From positions 62,001 to 126,000 of the forward strand of contig NZ_BAKX01000002.1 in the NCBI RefSeq assembly GCF_000614585.1: DNA of 64,000 nt, given 5' to 3'. The notes beneath the pieces are model-generated. The model was given only the letters and a program-made list of their open reading frames with translations. It was not told the DNA's origin and did no database searches. Position numbers and translations under genes: made by a program. This stretch comes from Porphyromonas gingivicanis JCM 15907 (GTDB taxonomy: Bacteria > Bacteroidota > Bacteroidia > Bacteroidales > Porphyromonadaceae). Position 1 is the stretch's first letter. The number at the start of each line of letters is the position of its first letter. This document shows, one piece after another, positions 34,257 to 64,000 of this stretch.

Positions 34257-35540
34257 TTACTTTTTACGAGGCTTGTAGAATTTGTAAGCAATGGAGATGC
34301 CAGCTCTGGTAATACCCCAATAGAAGTCGTTGCCTGAGTGGAATTTAGGACCATTGTTCCAGTTACGATAGACATCGTAGTCATATTCGGCAAAGCCTGC
34401 TCCGATGTTGAATTCTAAACTCCAGCGTCCCGCTTTGTCCAAGTGAGTGGCATAGCCGTAGCTGAGTCCCATCCCCCATAGTGCGTGGTTGGGGTCTTGG
34501 TATCGTCCATTATCGTTAATAGCCACATTAAAGCCTACTATGTGTGTATGAACCCCGAAGAAGTTGCCTCTGCCCGCTTTTTTCAACCAGTAGCGTAGCT
34601 CGGGTTGCGAAGCCAAAAGGCGTATTTTACGAGTTGGGGTGTAGTCGTAGGGAGAATACCAAACAGGTACATCCAAGCTCCATTGACGCCAAAGCTCCAC
34701 TTCAAAACCAGCATTCGCAAGTAGGGCACCCAAGAAGAGCCCATTTGTTTTAATGGCCCAGAAGCGATTTTCAACAGGGGCTTCGAGGGGCATTTCAACC
34801 ACAGGAGTGGGTGTTATGGTTACAGTGTCGGGTGGTAAATGGGTAGGAGTCGGAGAGACTGGAGTGGGGAGCTTAATATCTTCAGCAGAGCAGACAATAA
34901 CCATACGCGAGTTACGCAATACGGGAAAAATGTCTTGTAGTAATAGTCGCCACGTCTTTCCTTGGTCTATTGCTTTTATCTTGCGTTTTCTTACTGCCCA
35001 ATCATTCTCGTTTGAGATGATTTCCAAAACTCGTTCCTTGTTGGGGAATTCTTGTTCCCGAAGAAGACGAGAGAGCGTTAGCCAATCTTCCCAAAGATTT
35101 TCTTTCCGAATATCAGCGTCGGTTAAGTTGGTTTTCCTCTTGATATAGTCAGCAAACACTCGTGCACGCCATGCTCCCAACCGCTTATTGCCTTCAATAG
35201 GACCCTCAGGAGAGGCACTACCTCCAATCCAAATGTAAGACATCTTGACCCGTTCGTCTTTTCTCAATTTGTTGATAAGGTCTACAATCTCAGAGAGTTG
35301 CTCGTCTTCTCGCAACACAGCTTTGTTTACCTCATAGATGACGGGAACAAGATCCGTGTGAGCATACGCTAAAACGGAGTCTAACTTGTCGGAGGGTAGG
35401 AATGTTACATACCGAGGATACCATTCGTACGCCTGAGCAATAACAGAGTCCCCTTGAAGAGGGGGAGCCTCTACTTGTAAAGATGCTCCAGCCCATAGTA
35501 CATGGACAATTAGTGAAAGGAGTAGTAGCGTTCTTTTCAT
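34257..35540 (-). CDS. OmpA-like periplasmic domain fused to a DUF3575 outer-membrane domain
   Basis: A 427-residue envelope protein and first gene of the pilus locus. After a signal peptide it has a region with an OmpA-like peptidoglycan-binding motif (GGSASPEGPIEGNKRLGAWR, then ARVFADYIKRK, about 106-137), resembling the end of DUF3868 proteins. A Pro/Thr-rich linker (TPVSPTPTHLPPDTVTITPT) follows, then a DUF3575 beta-barrel-type domain (FWAIKTNGLFLGALLANAGF, SLDVPVWYSPYDYTP, FFGVHTHIVGFNV, GWSLEFNIGAGFAEY-like strands). At the other pilus locus (61.5-63.6 kb) these two parts are separate genes. Probably supports fimbria export or anchoring; inference from the locus. Confidence 0.82.
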   Translation of the reverse strand: MKRTLLLLSLIVHVLWAGASLQVEAPPLQGDSVIAQAYEWYPRYVTFLPSDKLDSVLAYAHTDLVPVIYEVNKAVLREDEQLSEIVDLINKLRKDERVKMSYIWIGGSASPEGPIEGNKRLGAWRARVFADYIKRKTNLTDADIRKENLWEDWLTLSRLLREQEFPNKERVLEIISNENDWAVRKRKIKAIDQGKTWRLLLQDIFPVLRNSRMVIVCSAEDIKLPTPVSPTPTHLPPDTVTITPTPVVEMPLEAPVENRFWAIKTNGLFLGALLANAGFEVELWRQWSLDVPVWYSPYDYTPTRKIRLLASQPELRYWLKKAGRGNFFGVHTHIVGFNVAINDNGRYQDPNHALWGMGLSYGYATHLDKAGRWSLEFNIGAGFAEYDYDVYRNWNNGPKFHSGNDFYWGITRAGISIAYKFYKPRKK

Positions 35541-50923: not shown

Positions 50924-53739
50924 ATGTATCTGATCGAGGCGTTTTTTTTTTATTGGTGGCTTCCCATTTTCTTTTTTCTTCTTTTGCCTTCGTGTGCTAA
51001 GAAACAACAAGTTATTTCTACCGAAGAACGCCGTGCTGTAGATAGTGTAATCCGATCGCAGAAAGGATGTGAAGAGTTAGAGGCTCTACAAAAAAAGTGG
51101 GAGGACGAAGGAAATCAGCTGGGTAGCTTATCGGTACTGAGAGAATGGGGCAAGAAATTGCGTGATGAGAGCCGTTTTGACGAAGCTCTCAAAGTACACA
51201 GCAAGGGGTTGATGCTGGCAGAGCAGCTTAATGATACCCTCGAAATGGTGCAAGCCCTTAACAATATTGGGACTAATTACCGACGTTTAGGAGTACTCGA
51301 TGTAGCTACTGAATATCATTATAAGGCGTGGAAGTTGAGCGAAGAGCATTCTGATACCTCTTATATGGCCAAGAAAAATGAGGTCATCTCTCTCAATGGT
51401 TTGGGTAATATCTATATGACTCTTGGCAATTATGAGCGTGCCGATAGTGCCTTTCGCAAAGCCCTTCGAGGAGAAGAAATACTCAAAAGCACTATTGGTA
51501 AGGCTATAAACTATGCTAATATCGGAGCTGTTTTTGAGTTACAGGGGCAGGTAGACTCCGCTTGGGTCTATTATCGTCGTTCTATGGAGTTGAATCAAAA
51601 GGCGAATAACACGCTGGGTATATCGCTCTGCTATATCTATTTTGGTCATCTCTATGAAGAGTCTGAAGATTACCTCTCGGCTAACGAGGCTTACCGTGCA
51701 GCTACCAACTTATGGTCGCTTCTAAAGATGAGTGGCATGCGCTCAATACGCTTATTGCGATGGCCCGTATTTCGTACAAAATGGGGCAATTCGATCAAGC
51801 AGAGGCTTACTTAGTACAAGCACGGCAGACTGCTCAGAAGATCAATTCCATAGCGCATCTCTCCGATATATATGACCTTTATTTTCTTATGTATAAGAAA
51901 CGAGGCGACTACCGCAAGGCTCTCGAATATCATGAACGTGCTACTCTCTATGCCGATAGTGTGGTAGACGTTAAGAAGATGAATCAGATACAAAATGTCA
52001 GCGTGAGTCTGGAACGCAATAGAGAGCGCCAAAAGATGCGTTTGGCAGAGCAGGAGTACAAGGAGGAGCGTACTGTACGTAGGGTAGGCTTTGCCATCTC
52101 TTTTATGGTTATCCTTATTCTCTTATTGCTCCTCTCGATGATGTGGTATATCTCTCGTAGCCGTGCTCGTAATCATCGCCTTCTGAAGAAGTTGAATAGT
52201 ATGCGTGAATCTTTCTTTACTAATGTTACCCACGAGTTTCGTACACCTCTAACGCTCATTTTGGGAGAGAGTAAAGATTTGCAGACTAAGTGTCATACTC
52301 GCGCAGAGATTGAGCATTCGGCTCAGGTTATAGAACGTCAGGGAAACAATCTCTTACAACTAATCAATCAACTACTTGATATTTCCAAGGTAAAATCATC
52401 CGTCGGAGACCCCGATTGGCGTAGAGGAGATGTGTGTACCTATCTTTCGATGATTGTAGATAGCTATCGAGAGTATGCTCATAGACACTCCATCGAACTT
52501 GATTTTGTGGCGCATGAAAGCATCGAGATAGATTTTGTGCCCGACTATACGAGCAAACTTATCAACAATTTACTTTCCAACGCACTAAAGTTTACTCCAA
52601 AGCAAGGCAAGATAACAGTCTCTGTGTGGAAGAAAGAGCAAAGCTGTTTCCTCGTAGTGGCAGACACCGGTATTGGTATTGCGGAGGAGGATATTGAACA
52701 TCTTTTTGAACCCTTTTTCCAAATAGTAGGGGGGCATGACAATACAGGTACGGGCATTGGTTTGGCTCTCGTTAAGCAGATTGTAGACTCTGTCGGAGGC
52801 TCTATTTCTGTTGAGAGTGTTTTAGGCAAAGGTACCACCTTTACTATCCAGTTACCCATACACCATGGTTCGGGGCATCATGCTATCTTCTCTTACGAAG
52901 AGCATCACAATATGCCTCTTTTACCCAAAGAGGTGGTGGAAACTACTGATGATTGTTCCGAGGAGGACGATGGGAAGACAAGAGTGCTTATTATAGAGGA
53001 TAATAGTGATATAGCCTCTTATATAGGAAGCCGATTTGGAGATGAATATGCCATATCTTATGCTGCCAATGGACGACTGGGGATTGAGAAAGCCGAAGAA
53101 ACCATCCCTGATATTATTATTACCGACTTGATGATGCCCGAAATGGATGGGGTAGAGGTGTGTAGACATATACGGCACAGCGAACTAACCAATCATATCC
53201 CGATTATTGTTATTACGGCTAAAGTGAACGAAGAGGATCGTATCAACGTTCTCAAAGAGGGAGCAGATGCTTTTTTGGAAAAGCCTTTCAATGACGAAGA
53301 ATTAAGGGTAAGGGTCGATAAACTTTTGGAACAGCGTAGATTGCTACGAGAGAAATATGCTCAGCCATTGGAAGAGAGTGGAGAAGAACCAGATGCACTT
53401 GAAATCGAGGAGAATAAGAAGTTCCTTAGTAAGATGATTACTTGCATCTATGTCCTTATGGAAAGTGGGCAGATGGATATACCGATGCTTGCCGAACGGC
53501 TGTGTTTGAGTACTCGACAGCTACATCGTAAGGTAACGGCATTAACAGGAGAAACCCCTGCAAGCTATACTATGCATGTGCGTATGCGTCGAGCTAAACA
53601 GCTTTTAGAGATGCACCCTGAGTGGAGTGTGAGAGAGGTTGCTTTGAAGTGTGGCTTTGATGAACCCTCCAATTTTACGCGCAACTTCCGAAAACTCTAT
53701 GGCATTTCGCCCAAACAGTATGGGCGCCATGAGGAGTAG
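50924..53739 (+). CDS. Hybrid two-component regulator: TPR sensor, histidine kinase, receiver, AraC domain; with a frameshift
   Basis: A single protein that senses outside the cell and controls transcription. In order: an N-terminal helix ending in a lipobox-like LLLPSC; TPR repeats (about 70-360; ALNNIGTNYRRLGVLDVATE); a transmembrane helix (about 389-411); HisKA with the phospho-His in VTHEFRTPLT (about 437); an ATPase domain (NNLLSNALKFTP, DTGIGIAEED, GTGIGLALVKQI); a receiver with the phospho-Asp in ITDLMMPEMDG (about 734); and an AraC helix-turn-helix (LSTRQLHRKVTALTGETPAS, CGFDEPSNFTRNFRKLYG). The frame breaks near 51706; one added base joins YRAATNL to MVASKDEWHALNT. After correction it has 938 residues. 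A TPR sensor instead of the usual propeller/Y_Y_Y module suggests a non-glycan signal. Possible target: the lipoprotein gene next door. Confidence 0.9.
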
Positions 53740-54982: not shown

Positions 54983-55034
54983 AGGGGTATTCTGAGATAT
55001 ACTCTAAACTTATCCTATATATAGTATAAGATTA

Positions 55035-55078
55035 GTCCCCGGTGAGCTTTTGATATTGGCTTCATTGGGGGCTTTTTT
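55035..55078 (+). terminator. Terminator of the Ig-like lipoprotein gene
   Basis: CCCCGGTGAGC pairs with GCTTCATTGGGG, using some G-T pairs, followed by CTTTTTT. Confidence 0.75.
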
Positions 55079-55217
55079 ATGGAGCCATAGGGCAAACGCT
55101 CCCTTTCTTTTGTATTTTTGTCTTCGTTGAGGTAGGGTAGAGTGAGGAGTGTCTCAATTCATTTTAGCCACACCCTTCTCTATAGATACCTATTATATAT
55201 ATGTGTAGTCGTAAACG

Positions 55218-56002
55218 ATGAATACGGAACTTCAGATCGTTATTGTCGGAGCAGGTGGAGTGGCTGAGAGTTTTATTGCCTCTCTTGTAACCAAAGGATG
55301 CACCCCTCATGCTATTGTAAGTCCGACAGTGGGGCATGCCGAGGCGTTGTCTGCACGCTATTGTCCCACAAGTCAAGTATTTCACTCTTTGGAAGAGATA
55401 CCACGGATGCCGATATCTATCTCTTGGCAGTACCTGATAGGGTGGTTCAAGAGGTGGCACAAACTATGCCTACTACCCAAGGGGTGTGGATGCACACGGC
55501 GGCAAGTGTCTCTCTTGAGACGCTCACACAGTATCACTATTCGAGTGCTGTTTTTTATCCATTAAATACCTTCTCAAAAGGTCGCCCTCTACCGATGGAG
55601 TGCGTGCCTCTTTTCTATGAGGGGGCAAGTAGTGAGGCTATGGAACAGGTGATGAGACTGGCACACCTTCTGGGGATGCAGGGGCGAGAAGCTCCCTTGT
55701 CGATGCGTAGAGCTCTGCACTTATCAGCTGTTTTTGCGTGCAACTTTGTCAATCACCAGTGGGCGGTGGCGGCACAGATGTTGGAGCGTGCCAATTTGCC
55801 CGTAGAAGTTTTGTACCCTTTGATGCAAGAAACATTGCACAAAGCCATTGCGTTGGGGGCTCAAGAGGGGCAGACGGGACCTGCTCGGAGGGGCGATGTC
55901 GAAACTATGCAAGCGCATCAGATGCTCTTAGGGGAGTATCCCGAAGAGTGGAGAGAACTCTATGCGATAACTTCGCTTTCTATACAAAAGCTCTATCAGT
56001 AG
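55218..56002 (+). CDS. DUF2520/Rossmann-like oxidoreductase, with a frameshift
   Basis: A 261-residue protein after correction. It begins with a dinucleotide-binding fold (LQIVIVGAGGVAESFIASLV). The frame breaks near 55403; one added base in a CC pair joins SLEEIP to TDADIYLLAVPDRVVQEVAQ. The DUF2520 region follows (MHTAASVSLETL, FYPLNTFSKG, ALHLSAVFACNFVNHQWAVA, ETLHKAIALGAQEGQTGPA, RRGDVETMQAHQMLL). Proteins of this type are annotated as F420/NADP-dependent oxidoreductase-like with unknown substrate. It precedes repeat copy E and is not clearly in an operon. Confidence 0.82.
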
Positions 56003-56069
56003 AGGATACTCGATGCTGTTCCCTTGGCTTGCCCTTTAAGCCTATCGTTCTTTAGACAGAAGGTTTTCT

Positions 56070-56131
56070 CGAAAAGGATTAATGGTTACGAGCGTTTGCA
56101 CAGATGTTTTTGTCGTAAAGGGTTAATGGTT
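56070..56131 (+). repeat. Dispersed intergenic repeat, copy E
   Basis: It reads GGATTAATGGTTACGAGCGT, then TTGCACAGATGTTTTTG and AAAGGGTTAATGGTT, aligning with the core and tail of copies A to D. Confidence 0.6.
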
Positions 56132-56498
56132 GCAAAAGATGGTAGTAGCCCCTTTTGCTACAAGGTTGATGTAAGGACTTTTTCCCTCTATACTAACAGC
56201 TTTAAGTGGAGCTTTGCAACGACCTAACTAATCTTTTCTTTTGTGAGAGTTCTTGCCTTCGCTGTCGAATACGAGGGGTATATATATTAACAAGAAATGC
56301 TATTTTCTGAACCTTTTTTTTTGAGGCACTCTCTTTCATTTTCTCTTGTTTGCCCCTTTTTTATCATTACCAAAAAGATTTATTATCTTCTTTCGAAAAG
56401 TCTTGAAACACCCTTGTATAAAGACTTTTCTTCCTCTTTGATCTTGTTGATAAAAGACCAAAACGCTGTTTTCGATTATAGAATTGTATAGAAAATAC

Positions 56499-56529
56499 TT
56501 GTTTATCTCTTTTCTATTATGTACTTTTG
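56499..56529 (+). promoter_or_regulatory. Promoter of the large surface protein operon
   Basis: TTG (56499-56501), a 20-base spacer and TACTTTTG (56522-56529). The leader to 56706 is about 170 bases, which leaves room for control. Confidence 0.65.
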
Positions 56530-56705
56530 GTACAGAAGATGATGTGAAGTGTCAAAAAATGTAATAGCCATGAAGTGTTCTTGGTCTTCCTTGATATGCT
56601 GTGTTGCTATTCCTTACTTTTTAAGGGGTTCATTCTTTGCAAACCTTTCAGTAAGTCTTCTTAGAGAGATTGTATATGGTGTATGAAATATAAAACGAAG
56701 AAAGT

Positions 56706-59700
56706 ATGAATCGTTCTCAAATAATTTATAGACTTTGGAAAACTGTGCTACTGCTCGTTAGTGGTGCTGTGCTTTCGAGTGGAGTTGCTTGGGCGCAAAC
56801 AGCTGCTGATGTTACGATGACAGCGGTAGCAACTGATGCACATTGTGTTCAGGATGGAGCTGTTGAAATCAATGTCGCAAAAAAAGAAGGTTCTCCTTAC
56901 AATTTTACTCCGAGTAATGTGAAGTATGATTTACGCGACGATAAAGGAAACTCTTTGGCAGGTGCGAGTGGCCAGTTTGTCTTAAATAATCGTTTTGGAG
57001 GACTGAAAAAAGGTGTCTATAAGGCATACGCTAAGGTGCGTTTTGATAATAGTGTAGAGGTTACTTTAGATCCTATTTCTGTTACTGTAAACTCGGATTA
57101 TAAAGTTCCAACGGTAGCTATTAAACTTGAACGTAAAACGTTGAAGAGCTATAAGGAAAATGGTCAGCGTGTCCCTACGGGGATTATTTCAGTAATGGTT
57201 ACTGGCGGGAATAGACCTGAGTATAAGGTTAAGATGATAGAAACACCATCTAACTATACTGGGATTAAAGAGCATGTCCTTACTCCTGATGTTAAGGTTT
57301 ACTTCTATAATATCCCAGAGGGAGTCTATAAGTTTCAGGTATATGATGAGTGTGGGGGGCAAGAGGTGCAAACTATTAATATGACAGCTGTTGCTTCTGA
57401 TGCCCCTCAGGGGGGGGTTGTTCCCTTTGAGACTAATCCTCAAGCTTCTGAGGAAACCCGCCTGGCTTGTGGTTGGTTCTTCTTCCGTTATCAAAATAGA
57501 GGTATTGCTCAGTTTGTTGGTAATGACCAAGATTTACAGCCCTATTTATCTCCCACAGGTAATAATCTTTCCACTCAAGGAGGAACAGTAGTGCCATTGG
57601 ATACAATTGCTAAGTACTACAATTATGGATTTGCTTATGGGGATGCTAAACCAACGAAGTATTATAAAGTTGGAGAGGTGAATTTTGCAGGTAACTCTAC
57701 TCCTGGTATTGCTGCAGATTGGGGAACCATGTATTATCTTTTTAGTAAGATTTCTAATGGGGCTAAGTGGAGTGATGCTGGTTTTGTGGATACAGATCAA
57801 AAGCCGGAAGTTAGTACTATTAATAAGAATGTTTTTCCAGCTCTTTTTTTACAAGTAAAAGGTTCTCCCGATCAGATGTCCACTGGGTTTCGAGGCAAAA
57901 GAATAAAAACTAAAAAATATGAATTCCTGACTCACTGGATTACCCTTGTGGATCCTTGTCGAACAGATTATTATGTGAATATTAGACCCTCGGATGTCGT
58001 TACAGAACTTTTTTGCTATCCTGTTAAGGTAGGGCTTTTTGATACTGATAAGACAACACGTTTAGGTACAGCGGGCGATGAGGTGTTTACGAAGAAAGGA
58101 AATCCTCCTAGTACCAGATTTAATAATTATGTTTTGAAGGCGGGAAAAGACTATTGGATTAAGGGTGAAGATGGAAGCGGTGCTAAGGTAGAATTCTCTA
58201 TAAGAATAGAGGACAGCTTCACTTATAATGTCAGAGTCAATCCAAGTAGAGATAAATATGATATTTGTAATCGAAAGAGAGGGTCAGCTATCGAAATATA
58301 TCGAGCTACTCCTATTGGTGCTACTTTTTTGAGTCATAAGGTAACTTTGCAGAGCGCTCCTGTTGGATATCAGCCAGAGGAAGATGGTTTAGTGTTGGGA
58401 GAAACATTTGAGTTTCCTGCTAATTTTCCTCCAGCGGAACCCGAAGATAAAGATAGAAGAAACAATCGCTTTTTCCCCTTTGGGAAGAAGTCAGAACTCT
58501 TCCGTAAGAGTAGAGATATATTTGCTCCGAATGGTAAGTATATGTTCAAGATAGAGGATGCGTGTGGCAAGGTTCATATGCTGGAAGCGGAGATTACGAC
58601 GGCTGTAACACCTAAATGGGAGGTTAAAGAAGAGAATTTTAGCCCACGTTTGGTAAATGCTTCTTGTGGACGCGTGCGTATTCATCCCTTTACTCCAGAA
58701 AATAGAACGAATTTCCTTTTTAAGAATGGTGCTGCAGAGCCAATGGATTTAATGTTCTATATCGCCGAGTTCCCAGCAGGTCTCAAGAAGGAAGATGTAA
58801 CTCATAACTTACAATCTGGAAGTGCTTGGGCATGGGTATATCACACAGCTTTGTGGTTTGGAGCAAATCAAGCCAATCCTGAGAATCTTTATTTTGAGTT
58901 GCCTAAAACCAATGGTAAAATAAAAATTGGAGTAGCTCCATTTAGTAGATCTAACGAGTATGACAGAGTTTTTAGAGACTTGCCGTGTATGCCTGTTTAT
59001 ACTATCGACTTATCTAACATCCCTCTCTCTTACGAACGAGAGACTTATATTGGGTATAGTTGTCCCGATGGCTTAACGGGTCGTCTCTTTATTGTTCCTA
59101 CTAATAATGTAGGGGGGGTAAAAATAGAACTCTTTTATGAAGGAGAAAGTCTTCCTTTTGCAACGCAGATTTTAGCAAAAGATCAAGTAAAGAATGGGGC
59201 TTCGTTCAATTTAGCAGCTCCTGCAGGAAAGAAACTCCCAGGTAAACTTCGTGCTAAATTGACTGATATGGAGTGTTCTAATTTTAATGATGAATCTCTC
59301 ATTGTATATAACCTCCCATCTCCAGACATGATTAGAACTCCTAATCAACAGCGTAAATATTGTGTGGGCGATAATATAGAGTTGGCTGTGATTAATTTGG
59401 GAGAAGGAATTACTTACTCATGGAAACTTCCTAATGGGCAAACTCGCACAGGACAGAAGATTGTACTTACGAATGTAGATGAGACTTATTCGGGAGAGTA
59501 TGAGATAACGATTAATAATATACTTTGTGGAGGTACTTCTTCAAGTATAAGTCAGAAGTTTGTCCTTTCTGTAGCACCACGTGAACTGTGGTGGCGCAAG
59601 GATGCCCAGAATGCAGACTGGCATAACCTCAATAACTGGGCCAAGAGAGATGGTGTACCCGTACAAGCTGTTCCTGCTCCTTGTACTACAGTGCATATAC

Positions 59701-61466
59701 CTGCAGAAGTGGATAACGCTTTCCCAGACCTTGCTGGTGCTATTACCAAACGAGATGTCTACGGTGCGCCTGAGTGTAATGATGTTTATTTCCACTATGG
59801 TTCTCAATTAGGAACTCCGCAACAGCTTTCCTACCATAATGCTTATGTAGACTATAATTTTGGTGAAATGAGCAATAGCGGTGTCGTTACTGCTTATGTT
59901 GAACTCGGGCATCCTTCTGCAGACAGTAAACTTATGGAGCGTAATCGTTGGTATATGATTGCTACTCCTCTTAAAGATATGGTTTCTGGAGACTTTGGGG
60001 TAGGAGGTTATCCCAAAACGTATCAACGTTATTTAAAGATGTCTACAGCAACTCCTTTGACCGATGCATCTTTCACAAAACCCTTTAATTCTCAAGTAGA
60101 ACCATTGTCAAATCACAATCATGCAATGGCTTTGCGAGTGGCTGGTTATCAAAGTGGTAAAGTTGGTTATAGTGATCATACGCGTCTCAATATGTTAGAT
60201 GGTATTTTCCGTCTACCTTTCTTTGAAAATCCTCGTTCTTCTTCTGCTTATGCTCATCATGATTATGATGATCATACAGAAACAAGTACTTTCCGCTATT
60301 ATAATGAAAATACTTTAGCACTAACGAATAGGACTGATAGTTATAAGAGAACTTTACCTGATGCATTCCGTTTTGTTTTTGAAAAGAATAATCCGGGTCG
60401 TCGTGGAAAGATTGGTAATATTCATGTTGGAGGTGTTAATACAGAGGGATACTCTTTAGGAGCTAAGCCCACAGGTGGCGTTGGAGACTGGATAATGTTG
60501 GGTAATCCATTTATGACACCGATGGATTTCGATAAGTTCTATGAAGTGAATCAAGATAAGATAGAACCTTACTACTACCTCTTTACAGAGAATGTTTGGA
60601 AGGTTTACTCCAAAGCAACAGCACCGGCTTCGACTCTTTCCAAAGAGATTGCTCCTTTGCAATCTATTGTCGTGAAGCGTAAGGCGGTAGGCGACCTTCT
60701 TTTCCCCACATCAGGAGATAAGTCTGTTCTTCTCCCATCATGGCGCACAGGACAGCCTGGTCGTTACGAGGTGAAGAATGCAGGTGTGGTTTCTATGGAG
60801 GAAGTGCCTCTTACTATCAATGTAGCCAATAGAGAGGGCGACTATTCACAGGCTTTCTTGGGTTGGACTAATGATGTCTCTGCTCCTGCATTCGTAAATA
60901 GTGAGTATGCTTCTATGCCTACAGTCTTCTTGGTAGAGCCTGATGCTGGAGATTACAATGCTATTACTTATCCTAAGAGAGCTCATGGTACTATCAATTT
61001 AGGAGTAGCTTCTTCGCTTTCGTCTCCTTTGACACTCTCTTTTGACCATATAGATCGCTCGGTATATGAAGAGCTTACATTGGTCGATAAGCATGAGGGA
61101 GTAGAGCAAGATCTCCTAAGCAACCCTCAGTACGACTTTATCCATAAGCCCGATACGACTCCTGCTACACGTTTTGCTTTGCGTATCAAACGCTTTGGTA
61201 TAACCAATGTTACATCGAGTGACGAGATGCCTATTGCTGAGTTCAAGATGTTCTACAGAGCAGGTAGCCTCCGTGTCGAGAGTCCCGATGCTCTCCATCG
61301 AGTAGTTGTTTACGATATGCAGGGTAAGACATTGGCAGACGAAGTTTTGACAGACAATGCTACTCGTACTGTAGAAGTAGATACTAATAATGCTCATGGA
61401 GTGGTAGTAGTAGAAGTATTCTTCAAGAATGGAATGCGTACGGTACGTAAATACGATTTGCGATAA
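56706..61466 (+). CDS. Large secreted surface protein (1586 residues), probable T9SS cargo
   Basis: A signal peptide (MNRSQIIYRLWKTVLLLVSG, cut after GVAWAQ) is followed by beta-rich, adhesin-like sequence. Recognisable pieces are an Ig/PKD-like module (YCVGDNIELAVINLGEGITY, YSWKLPNGQTRTG), a segment (ADWHNLNNWAKRDGVPVQAV, TVHIPAEVDNAFPDLAG) common in secreted Bacteroidota proteins, and a C-terminal sorting-domain-like end (HRVVVYDMQGKTLADEVL, GVVVVEVFFKNGMRTVRKYD). The middle is unfamiliar. The DUF3575, DUF3868 and Mfa2-like genes follow at gaps of 54, 26 and 21 bases, so this may be the surface product of a pilus-type operon. A role in adhesion is inferred only. Confidence 0.8.
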   Translation: MNRSQIIYRLWKTVLLLVSGAVLSSGVAWAQTAADVTMTAVATDAHCVQDGAVEINVAKKEGSPYNFTPSNVKYDLRDDKGNSLAGASGQFVLNNRFGGLKKGVYKAYAKVRFDNSVEVTLDPISVTVNSDYKVPTVAIKLERKTLKSYKENGQRVPTGIISVMVTGGNRPEYKVKMIETPSNYTGIKEHVLTPDVKVYFYNIPEGVYKFQVYDECGGQEVQTINMTAVASDAPQGGVVPFETNPQASEETRLACGWFFFRYQNRGIAQFVGNDQDLQPYLSPTGNNLSTQGGTVVPLDTIAKYYNYGFAYGDAKPTKYYKVGEVNFAGNSTPGIAADWGTMYYLFSKISNGAKWSDAGFVDTDQKPEVSTINKNVFPALFLQVKGSPDQMSTGFRGKRIKTKKYEFLTHWITLVDPCRTDYYVNIRPSDVVTELFCYPVKVGLFDTDKTTRLGTAGDEVFTKKGNPPSTRFNNYVLKAGKDYWIKGEDGSGAKVEFSIRIEDSFTYNVRVNPSRDKYDICNRKRGSAIEIYRATPIGATFLSHKVTLQSAPVGYQPEEDGLVLGETFEFPANFPPAEPEDKDRRNNRFFPFGKKSELFRKSRDIFAPNGKYMFKIEDACGKVHMLEAEITTAVTPKWEVKEENFSPRLVNASCGRVRIHPFTPENRTNFLFKNGAAEPMDLMFYIAEFPAGLKKEDVTHNLQSGSAWAWVYHTALWFGANQANPENLYFELPKTNGKIKIGVAPFSRSNEYDRVFRDLPCMPVYTIDLSNIPLSYERETYIGYSCPDGLTGRLFIVPTNNVGGVKIELFYEGESLPFATQILAKDQVKNGASFNLAAPAGKKLPGKLRAKLTDMECSNFNDESLIVYNLPSPDMIRTPNQQRKYCVGDNIELAVINLGEGITYSWKLPNGQTRTGQKIVLTNVDETYSGEYEITINNILCGGTSSSISQKFVLSVAPRELWWRKDAQNADWHNLNNWAKRDGVPVQAVPAPCTTVHIPAEVDNAFPDLAGAITKRDVYGAPECNDVYFHYGSQLGTPQQLSYHNAYVDYNFGEMSNSGVVTAYVELGHPSADSKLMERNRWYMIATPLKDMVSGDFGVGGYPKTYQRYLKMSTATPLTDASFTKPFNSQVEPLSNHNHAMALRVAGYQSGKVGYSDHTRLNMLDGIFRLPFFENPRSSSAYAHHDYDDHTETSTFRYYNENTLALTNRTDSYKRTLPDAFRFVFEKNNPGRRGKIGNIHVGGVNTEGYSLGAKPTGGVGDWIMLGNPFMTPMDFDKFYEVNQDKIEPYYYLFTENVWKVYSKATAPASTLSKEIAPLQSIVVKRKAVGDLLFPTSGDKSVLLPSWRTGQPGRYEVKNAGVVSMEEVPLTINVANREGDYSQAFLGWTNDVSAPAFVNSEYASMPTVFLVEPDAGDYNAITYPKRAHGTINLGVASSLSSPLTLSFDHIDRSVYEELTLVDKHEGVEQDLLSNPQYDFIHKPDTTPATRFALRIKRFGITNVTSSDEMPIAEFKMFYRAGSLRVESPDALHRVVVYDMQGKTLADEVLTDNATRTVEVDTNNAHGVVVVEVFFKNGMRTVRKYDLR

Positions 61467-61520
61467 ATAACTTACTCTCTTGCTTAGAGGTAAATAAGGA
61501 CAATGATAAAATACTATGAT

Positions 61521-62129
61521 ATGAAAAAGTTTCTGCTTATTGGAGCGTTGTTGCTAGTAGCTTTCTCTTCGGCTTTTGCCCAAAAAGTAGCTATAAAGAA
61601 CAACCTTGCCTATGATGCTCTTCTTACTCCCAACCTCTCTTTAGAGATTGCTTTAGGACGTAAGGTTACCTTGGATACTCAGCTGGGAGCCAACTTCTTC
61701 TTCTATGAAAAGAACTCTTTAGCCACAGGGTATACTCCTAAGAAATGGAGTCACTGGTTGGTACAGCCCGAACTCCGTCTTTGGACTTGTGATGCCTTTA
61801 ATGGTTGGTTCTTTGGGGTACATGCTCATGGGGGGCTTATGAATGTTGGAGGGGTAAATATCCCTTACTTTATCCTACAGAATAAAGAGAATAAGATGGC
61901 AGACCATCGTTACGAAGGTTGGTTTATCGGTGGTGGTGTGAGTGTGGGGTATCATTGGATGCTCTCTTCTCGCTTCAGTCTTGAGGCTTCTATTGGAGCA
62001 GGTTATGCTCGTATCATGTATGATAAGTATAAGTGTACTACTTGTGGCGAGCGTCTCGCGAAAGATCAGGTGGCAGACTATATTGGTCCTACCAAGGCTA
62101 CCCTCTCTTTGATATATATGATTAAGTAA
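61521..62129 (+). CDS. DUF3575 outer-membrane protein
   Basis: A 202-residue predicted outer-membrane barrel (start at 61521; a Met at 61503 would precede it by 6 residues). Signal MKKFLLIGALLLVAFSSAFA. Family features are KNNLAYDALLTPNLSLEIAL, WLVQPELRLWTC, GWFIGGGVSVGYHW and the Cys pair YKCTTCGERLAKDQ. In Bacteroidota fimbrial operons DUF3575 and DUF3868 proteins commonly precede Mfa2/FimB genes. The corresponding part is fused to an OmpA-like domain at the 34-kb locus. Confidence 0.88.
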   Translation: MKKFLLIGALLLVAFSSAFAQKVAIKNNLAYDALLTPNLSLEIALGRKVTLDTQLGANFFFYEKNSLATGYTPKKWSHWLVQPELRLWTCDAFNGWFFGVHAHGGLMNVGGVNIPYFILQNKENKMADHRYEGWFIGGGVSVGYHWMLSSRFSLEASIGAGYARIMYDKYKCTTCGERLAKDQVADYIGPTKATLSLIYMIK

Positions 62130-62155
62130 AAACGATAAAGAAAAAGGAATTAGCA

Positions 62156-63601
62156 ATGAATAAGATATACAAATTTCTAATCGTTTCCCTCTTCGGAGCT
62201 TCGCTCTCTTTTGGAGTTTCTGCTCAGAAAACAGAAACCTATAAGTGGACGAGTAGTAATGTCAAGATAGAGCGTTCGCAAGACAGACAACACCTCAATG
62301 TGTCGTTTTCTGTTCTCCCCGATCGCAAGATAATGTCTCAAGAGTTGGTGTACATCTACCCTACACTGGTAAGTGCAGACAATTCTAAGGAGGTAAGCCT
62401 TGAGCCTTTGTGCATTGTAGGCAATAAGCGTGCAAAGGTTATCAAGCGTGCAAAGGTGTTAAAGAATAAGATGCACCTCCCTGTTGTAGAGGAGGTACAT
62501 TCAGCCAAGTTTGCTTCCATAGAGGTAGAGCGTTCTGTGCCCTTTGAACGTTGGATGGCGAAGTCTCGCCTTGTACTTCGTGAGGAAGTGTATGGTTGTG
62601 CCGAGTGTAAGAAGAAAGATCGTGAGCGCGGTTCCTATGATGCAGGCATCCATTCTTTCTCTCCCGAAGATTATCGTTACTCATTTGTTGAGCCTAAGGC
62701 GGTAGCTGTTAAACGTCATGAGGAGAGCTTTGAGAGTAAGGTTAACTTCGTTGTAGCGCGTCATGAACTCAAGAGAGATTATAAGAACAATGCTTCTGAA
62801 CTCAATCGTTTGGACGACTTTGTGAAGAAAGCTTTGAGCTTAGAGGGAACTACTTTGGATGTAGTACATGTAGAAGGGTATGCCTCTCCCGAAGGAGATG
62901 CTAATGCCAACCAAACTCTCTCAGAGCGTCGTGCCGATGTTTTGGCTAACTATGTACGCAATAAGTATCCGCAGATTAAACGTACACAAAACCTCAAGGT
63001 TAAGGGGTTTGGTTCAGACTGGGCTGGTCTTCGTAAGGCTGTTGAGGCTTCTAATCTTTCTTATAAGGCACAGGTGCTCAAAGCGCTTGATACTCATTCC
63101 GATCACTTGGGTAAACGTAATGCCCTTCTTCAAATAGAGGGTGGTCAGGCTTATCACTACCTTTTGGAAAATATTTATCCTCCGCTCCGTCGTACTACTT
63201 TCCGTATGGGTTACAAGGTGCGTCCATTCACTATTGACGAATTGCCTCGTATCTTCGGTAAGAAACCTGAGTTGATGAGTAATCAAGAGCACTATATGCT
63301 GGCTCAGCAGTATATTAAAGAGGGTAAAAATCCTCTTCCAGTATTTGAAACAGCTTATCGTATCTATCCAGACGATGTGGTAGCTGCTCTCAACTATGCC
63401 AACGCTCTTTTGAAATATGATGGAAGTAAGCAGGCAGAAAAAGCTGTGTGTGTACTCCAACCTTTTAGAGACGATGTTCGTACAGCTCTTCCTACAGCTA
63501 TAGCAGAACATATGTTGGGCTATGAAGAAGCGGCAGAAAAAACTCTCAGCGATGCAGCTGCTAAGGGATGCAAGATAGCTCAAGAGATTTTGAACCGATA
63601 A
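62156..63601 (+). CDS. DUF3868/OmpA-like fimbrial accessory protein
   Basis: A 481-residue envelope protein with signal MNKIYKFLIVSLFGASLSFG. A DUF3868-type N-terminal domain (NVKIERSQDRQHLNVSFSVL, REEVYGCAECKKKDRERG) is followed by an OmpA-like peptidoglycan-binding region (VHVEGYASPEGDANANQTLS, ERRADVLANYVRNKYP) and a C-terminal helical TPR-like region (VFETAYRIYPDDVVAALNYA). Proteins of this class support export or anchoring of type V fimbriae at the outer membrane. The gap to the DUF3575 gene is 26 bases. Confidence 0.88.
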   Translation: MNKIYKFLIVSLFGASLSFGVSAQKTETYKWTSSNVKIERSQDRQHLNVSFSVLPDRKIMSQELVYIYPTLVSADNSKEVSLEPLCIVGNKRAKVIKRAKVLKNKMHLPVVEEVHSAKFASIEVERSVPFERWMAKSRLVLREEVYGCAECKKKDRERGSYDAGIHSFSPEDYRYSFVEPKAVAVKRHEESFESKVNFVVARHELKRDYKNNASELNRLDDFVKKALSLEGTTLDVVHVEGYASPEGDANANQTLSERRADVLANYVRNKYPQIKRTQNLKVKGFGSDWAGLRKAVEASNLSYKAQVLKALDTHSDHLGKRNALLQIEGGQAYHYLLENIYPPLRRTTFRMGYKVRPFTIDELPRIFGKKPELMSNQEHYMLAQQYIKEGKNPLPVFETAYRIYPDDVVAALNYANALLKYDGSKQAEKAVCVLQPFRDDVRTALPTAIAEHMLGYEEAAEKTLSDAAAKGCKIAQEILNR

Positions 63602-63622
63602 ACGAAGAAAACTGACTAAACA

Positions 63623-64000
63623 ATGAACTCATCATTTATGAATCGTATAAATAAACTCAAAATTTGGTGCTGGGCAGTAGTTGCAGTGCTTCTTGCGGGA
63701 GTTACTTCTTCTTGTAAGCGACACGTGTTTGACAACTTGGCTTCCTGCGAAAGAGGAGTCTATATTAATATCTATGAGCAAACAGAGTGTGCCAAAGCTC
63801 CCTCTTTTCCAGAGGTTAAGAGTTTGCATATCTACACTTTCAACGAGCAGGATAAGTGGGTGTCTACCACAGTAAACAAAGACTTTCGTCTTTCTGCAGA
63901 GGGAGAGGTATTGGTTCCAGTGCCAACCCATGGTCGTTATAGCTTCGTAGTGTGGGCTAATGTAGATGATCATTTTGAATTAAAAGAACTCAATAACGAA
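63623..64000 (+). CDS. FimB/Mfa2-like fimbrial lipoprotein (N-terminal part, cut by window edge)
   Basis: 126 codons are present and the frame runs off the right edge. The lipobox VTSSC has its Cys at 31 if the first Met (63623) is used, or 26 from the Met at 63638. The sequence RGVYINIYEQTECAKAPSFP, LHIYTFNEQDKWV and GRYSFVVWANVDDHFEL is the usual Mfa2/FimB opening. It follows DUF3868 by 21 bases, as in other fimbrial operons. Confidence 0.85.
   Translation, partial: MNSSFMNRINKLKIWCWAVVAVLLAGVTSSCKRHVFDNLASCERGVYINIYEQTECAKAPSFPEVKSLHIYTFNEQDKWVSTTVNKDFRLSAEGEVLVPVPTHGRYSFVVWANVDDHFELKELNNE

Follow-up and report, generated by a model that had tools for sequence, protein, structure and literature searches.

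A giant predicted type IX cargo at the head of an Mfa1-type fimbria cluster in Porphyromonas gingivicanis

A protein of 1586 residues from Porphyromonas gingivicanis, here called GIANT, is probably an accessory adhesin of the Mfa5 type that belongs to an Mfa1-type (type V) fimbria, and we infer that it is exported, incorporated into the fimbria, adhesive and transcribed together with the fimbrial genes. The basis for this role is gene order, predicted folds, the presence of translocon and sortase genes, a recurrent linkage to fimbrial genes and a remote module in common with Mfa5.

In the proposed arrangement, Mfa1, Mfa2 and the tip protein would reach the surface as lipoproteins; the shaft and tip subunits of P. 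gingivalis travel as lipoproteins, and their polymerisation is thought to proceed by strand replacement (PMC7835359). GIANT would be exported by the type IX system, dock on the fimbria tip and act as an adhesive accessory, and its gene would share one transcript with the fimbrial genes. FimX and PgmA would serve the cluster as in P. gingivalis, possibly by influencing expression or through a role at the outer membrane. The available part of PMC3436787 reports that loss of fimX or pgmA lowers fimA transcription, that PgmA is located in the outer membrane, and that neither protein is needed for polymerisation.

The gene row and its surroundings

The window, which is the whole stretch of DNA analysed, is 64,000 nucleotides long (G000:C34:62001-126000) and comes from a genome of 2.05 Mb in 35 contigs, with completeness 88.5% and contamination 5.4%. 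The features of the row are as follows.

56706..61466, + strand: GIANT, predicted type IX cargo heading the fimbria cluster, 1586 aa (intact open reading frame; 17-gene family in 9 of 26 genomes)
56706..56795, + strand: N-terminal signal peptide of GIANT (residues 1-30), assigned by eye with AWA ahead of Q31; lipobox pattern absent
56793..57392, + strand: stretch of GIANT resembling an FN3 domain pair, residues 30-229 (model m8ade89048943)
59043..59582, + strand: Ig-like pair of GIANT resembling GhpA repeats, residues 780-959 (predicted structure, profile, Foldseek)
60378..61220, + strand: pre-sorting module of GIANT, residues 1225-1505, common to Mfa5, the G007 cargo and RemZ (profile alignments)
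61236..61463, + strand: predicted type A sorting domain of GIANT, residues 1511-1586 (fold match to the sorting domain of RemA within its type IX complex)
61503..62129, + strand: FimX homologue (DUF3575), 208 aa (Pfam 2.7e-63; 44% identity to the gene in the fimX position of G025)
62156..63601, + strand: PgmA homologue (OmpA domain), 481 aa (OmpA 2.7e-6; 28% identity to the gene in the pgmA position of G025)
63623..64000, + strand, running past the window to 328 aa: Mfa2-type anchor lipoprotein (Pfam Mfa2)

The first-pass annotation had described a 1586-residue protein at the head of a short-gapped row, and this was found to be real: the frame at 56706-61466 starts with ATG and runs to its 1586 residues without an internal stop, and all four genes are there. 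The gaps of 54, 26 and 21 bases were also found, the first measuring 36 from the gene start at 61503 and 54 from an in-frame ATG at 61521. Pfam bore out the DUF3575 gene at the value listed, and the Mfa2-like gene at 5.6e-9 for its part in the window and at 7.5e-32, over cut-off, for the complete 328 aa. The DUF3868 label on the gene at 62156-63601 had to be dropped; the family has no match in this protein at E<=1 or in the genome at E<=10, and the gene encodes an OmpA-domain protein. It aligns at 28% identity across 443 positions with the pgmA-position gene of G025, which we take to be P. gingivalis ATCC 33277, and the DUF3868 match of that gene is itself sub-threshold (22.1 bits, cut-off 27).

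Beyond the window (L002), the row continues with an Mfa1-type shaft gene (532 aa, gap 68) and a tip-type lipoprotein gene (405 aa, gap 256). The best PDB match of the shaft gene is Mfa1 (E 1.1e-64), with Fimbrillin_C at 5.6e-12, and a sequence search with the 405-aa tip protein gave no related solved structure at E<=1. In a pattern test the lipobox was present in the Mfa2, Mfa1 and tip proteins and absent from GIANT and the FimX and PgmA relatives. Judged from its gene content, the row is an Mfa1-type (type V) fimbria cluster.

The first-pass annotation had noted one promoter. A sigma-70 scan found 18 promoter-like sites, which is chance level (mean of 17.0 in shuffled sequence), and one Bacteroidota-type -7 element at 56522 is a lead only. 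The first-pass annotation had also considered a promoter and terminator between 61466 and 61521, and no terminator-like site lies there. The predicted folding of 61440-61530 does not exceed that of shuffled versions (z -0.25), and Rfam gave no match in 55000-64000.

The gene preceding GIANT (window 55218-56002) is split over two frames and is a single 282-aa frame in P. circumdentaria; the split is probably due to a sequencing indel. At 50924-53739 lies a TPR histidine kinase that also has response regulator and AraC domains; its gene occupies two overlapping frames in the window and one 959-aa frame in P. circumdentaria. The likeness of this kinase to FimS is below cut-off (106.7 of 600 bits), and it could regulate the fimbria row. 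On the minus strand, at 34257-35540, a DUF3575 part (6.8e-38) and an OmpA-type part resembling PgmA (E 3e-13 against the PgmA homologue) are fused in a single protein beside DUF6562 lipoproteins. Such a fusion is a hint that FimX and PgmA work jointly.

A stem-loop was found between the shaft and tip genes, at L002 10277-10420 (window 66277-66420, past the edge) and at L028 15808-15951. It is strong in both species (z -3.6 and -5.0, with 0 of 200 shuffles as stable in each), and might set the shaft:tip ratio. The last 16 residues of the Mfa1-type shaft and the Mfa2-type anchor are alike within a cluster, both here (L002 7623-8609 and 8678-10276) and in 17 other clusters. The mean score was 44.4 against 34.2 (sd 1.6) for shuffled partners, with 0 of 20000 as high and the kinship of clusters uncorrected, and the own partner scored best in 8 of the 18 clusters. 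From their sequences, these two C-terminal ends may be the same donor strand. A motif resembling this end was not seen in 12 GIANT proteins and Mfa5.

Domains of GIANT and its predicted export

Neither Pfam nor NCBIfam places a domain over cut-off in GIANT, and the single protein as query found nothing useful in PDB. The predicted structures are mainly beta, with a pLDDT of 77 for residues 30-880 and 83 for residues 780-1586. Domain prediction of the middle region, which had been proposed earlier as a check, found Ig/FN3-like domains; the structure-match lists were filled by Ig and FN3 domains, and other folds are possible in the middle of the protein. Residues 30-229 match the FN3 pair of integrin beta4 with Z 8.9 and rmsd 5.7 over 171 aligned residues of the predicted structure.

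The C-terminus had been called sorting-like from its letters. The predicted structure upholds this as a type A sorting domain, while the curated sequence models stay below cut-off. In the predicted fold, the last 76 residues match the sorting domain of RemA in the type IX translocon (Z 11.2, rmsd 1.6 A, 74 of 76 residues), and that of RemZ nearly as well (Z 10.0, rmsd 1.8, 71 of 75 residues). The best unrelated row for the sorting stretch reaches Z 9.4; at Z 11.1, Ig-pair rows for a different stretch are level with the RemA match. TIGR04183 gives 13.9 bits (cut-off 23), or 16.4 in the genome scan, and NF033708 gives 14.7 of 40. None of eight further GIANT C-termini passes the curated cut-offs, four of them having no sorting match at E<=1, and Mfa5 falls under the cut-off too at 14.5 bits. 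A sorting-domain profile built from the GIANT family matches other sorting tails of the same genome, the best at 6.9e-11; the tail model matches 50 times in this genome, in 40 cases over cut-off.

SprA and PorU genes are present in the genome, in four and three pieces respectively in this assembly. In all 8 related genomes that were searched, each of the two genes is one intact frame, which suggests that sequencing indels caused the fragmentation. GIANT most likely leaves the cell by another export machine than the remaining fimbrial parts.

Fimbrial linkage and the relation to Mfa5

A profile search of 26 Porphyromonas genomes gave a match at E<=0.001 in 10. Leaving out a weak match in G021 (18.6 bits), a row with the sorting domain only (G000:C34:160061) and further pieces of the same genes, the family consists of 17 genes in nine of the 26 genomes. 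Thirteen are close (over 1700 bits, in eight genomes) and four are distant (G012:C13, G015:C19, G017 at 576 kb and G018:C84); the distant members match in parts only, and G018:C84 is cut by a contig end. The closest match, in P. circumdentaria ATCC 51356 (G024), has 70% and 68% identity. A contig search with the GIANT alignment found 14 loci and the same search with the single protein found nothing, while a plasmid search gave one weak match only.

Fimbrial genes adjoin 16 of the 17 family members, although the copies are related and are hence not 16 independent events. Thirteen follow a tip gene, in the orders Mfa1-Mfa2-tip-GIANT (seven), Mfa2-tip-GIANT (three), Mfa1-tip-GIANT (one) and tip-GIANT (two, on short contigs). 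Three stand at the head of a row, those of G000 and G024:C21 before fimX and that of G019:C20 before an Mfa1-type gene. The remaining copy (G019:C17) is alone, with no fimbrial gene within the 20 kb examined. In the gene tree the G000 and G024:C21 copies pair as sisters, as do G019:C20 and the lone G019 copy; the head position takes two changes, and one origin appears in 8% of 200 bootstrap trees.

Surroundings were fetched for a part of the Mfa1-type matches, leaving out G006, G010, G005:C31, G002:C202 and G012:C14. Seven Mfa1-type rows without GIANT or Mfa5 (L149, L150, L153, L154, L156, L157 and L158) have large genes behind the tip gene, coding for about 565-945 aa; the lipobox pattern occurs in many of them. 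The place of the large adhesin in Mfa1-type rows may thus be filled by either export route.

G025 is taken for P. gingivalis in view of a row of fimX, pgmA, a FimA-type gene and a short FimB-type gene (L164), and of a second row in the order Mfa1-Mfa2-tip-tip-Mfa5, whose last gene equals the PDB Mfa5 in the residues compared. Mfa5 thus follows a tip gene, like 13 of the 17 GIANT copies. The GIANT profile aligns with Mfa5 in the C-terminal 295 columns only (hhalign E 2.8e-4, probability 41%). Residues 1225-1505, taken without the sorting domain, still align remotely with Mfa5 (hhalign P 1.6e-4, probability 50%), and hmmsearch with this pre-sorting module at E<=10 missed Mfa5. The module also aligns with an Mfa5-like fragment preceding a DUF3575 gene in G010 (P 1.9e-5) and with a 973-aa cargo of an Mfa1-type row in G007 (P 1.4e-8). 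The G010 contig begins inside the Mfa5-like gene, of which the fragment (L142 1-720) is the end. The G007 cargo (L155 12545-15466) ends its row, with a sorting tail over cut-off (26.6 bits) and sub-threshold leucine-rich matches.

Among 30 other sorting-tail loci of the same genome, none fell below P 0.05 (lowest 0.059); in 21 of the 30 the tail compared spans 400 residues or more, which makes them fair controls, and none of the 21 shares the module. A 1219-aa protein beside the fimbria cluster of G020 does not share it either (P 0.52). RemZ does have it (7.3e-14), and therefore the module is no proof of a fimbrial role.

Alternative readings and known systems

Several results count against an Mfa5-type role: the curated sorting scores under cut-off, the remoteness of the Mfa5 link, the missing vWA domain, the module in RemZ, the lone copy G019:C17, SprA and PorU in pieces in this assembly, and the G020 protein without the module. 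Some of these would fit a GIANT that is a type IX surface adhesin anchoring itself in the outer membrane via the PorU sortase, co-expressed with the fimbria and not part of it. The type A sorting fold and the PorU gene are present, one copy is without fimbrial neighbours, and RemZ has the C-terminal module; even for Mfa5, partial carriage on A-LPS is suggested by the available part of PMC4593637, which also reports that Mfa5 leaks without Mfa4. We nevertheless consider this self-anchoring rather unlikely, given that 16 of 17 copies are linked to fimbrial genes, usually right behind the tip gene, and given a module that is common to Mfa5 and absent from 21 other long cargos.

It is very unlikely that GIANT has no functional link to the fimbria, being either co-transcribed by mere chance of position or bounded by a promoter and a terminator of its own. 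P. circumdentaria keeps the same order as the present row with a gap of 41, the third head copy leads an Mfa1-Mfa2-tip row at a gap of 57, and no terminator-like site follows GIANT, even if just two of 17 copies (G000 and G024) stand before fimX and the promoter scan stayed at chance level. Least probable of all is that the C-terminus is a non-working sorting signal and that GIANT is periplasmic or exported by another route. All curated models are indeed under cut-off, but the score of Mfa5, which is reported to be a type IX cargo, is equally low; the predicted fold matches sorting domains solved in the translocon, and the family profile matches other tails of the genome. A shared regulon only, the alternative offered by the first-pass annotation, is less likely because gene order varies between species while the linkage persists. 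Its leading suggestion, one surface structure with two export routes, is what we infer as well, with good support from lipoboxes in Mfa2, Mfa1 and the tip protein beside a GIANT with a sorting fold, from the linkage, and from the precedent of Mfa5.

GIANT as an Mfa5-type adhesin would be a new large protein in a known arrangement, as two export routes in one fimbria are already known from Mfa5: a block of type IX secretion stops the export of Mfa5 and not of other fimbrial proteins (PMC7835359). The first-pass annotation had noted that fimbrial proteins normally leave as lipoproteins and not by type IX; the departure of GIANT is less odd than it supposed, since Mfa5 is type IX-dependent. A literature search over partly available texts did not find the GIANT family, its fimbrial linkage or the shared module. 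The available part of PMC11316588 mentions uncharacterised "alternative loci" for fimbrillin in P. circumdentaria, P. crevioricanis and P. uenonis; GIANT copies were found in all three species, and give content to these loci.

A broader idea is tentative, and seems to us possible rather than probable. Giant type IX cargos with vWA (Mfa5), Ig/FN3 (GIANT) and possibly leucine-rich (G007) ectodomains would be interchangeable at an outer position of Porphyromonas type V fimbriae, all docking on the lipoprotein tip subunit through one shared pre-sorting module of ~280 residues. If true, two-route assembly would be a general design and not a P. gingivalis speciality. How Mfa5, off the lipoprotein route, joins the type V fimbria is an open question (PMC7835359), and a second family that occupies this position, differs in its ectodomain and remotely shares the module ahead of the sorting domain would narrow the candidate docking part to those ~280 residues.

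The closest known system is Mfa5 of the P. gingivalis Mfa1 fimbriae (PDB 6TO1), like GIANT a large non-lipoprotein with a sorting domain in an Mfa1-Mfa2-tip row, and with a C-terminal module that aligns remotely. Mfa5 has a vWA domain (3.7e-16), whereas GIANT has no vWA match by Pfam at E<=1, and for this reason GIANT is classed as working like Mfa5 and not as Mfa5. GIANT is also longer (1586 aa against 1251 aa for the Mfa5 frame in the P. gingivalis genome) and stands at the row head in its own genome. According to the available part of PMC8313007, Mfa5 genotypes D and E are without the vWA part and keep the C-terminal half, so that P. gingivalis itself offers a documented case of an altered ectodomain at this position.

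The fimX-pgmA pair has its counterpart in the P. gingivalis fimA cluster, with the same two genes in the same order at the identities listed above; unlike there, the pair here stands between GIANT and the genes for Mfa2 and an Mfa1-type shaft. The sorting-domain fold predicted for GIANT is also that of RemZ and RemA, two type IX cargos whose structures were determined together with the translocon (8gl8, 8gl6), and RemZ has the pre-sorting module besides. GhpA, the grappling hook protein of Aureispira, has Ig-like repeats in common with GIANT (7.1e-84 by profile over many repeats, Foldseek 1.4e-11), but is 5898 aa long in its record and matches GIANT in the repeat domains only, with a whole-model TM-score of 0.10.
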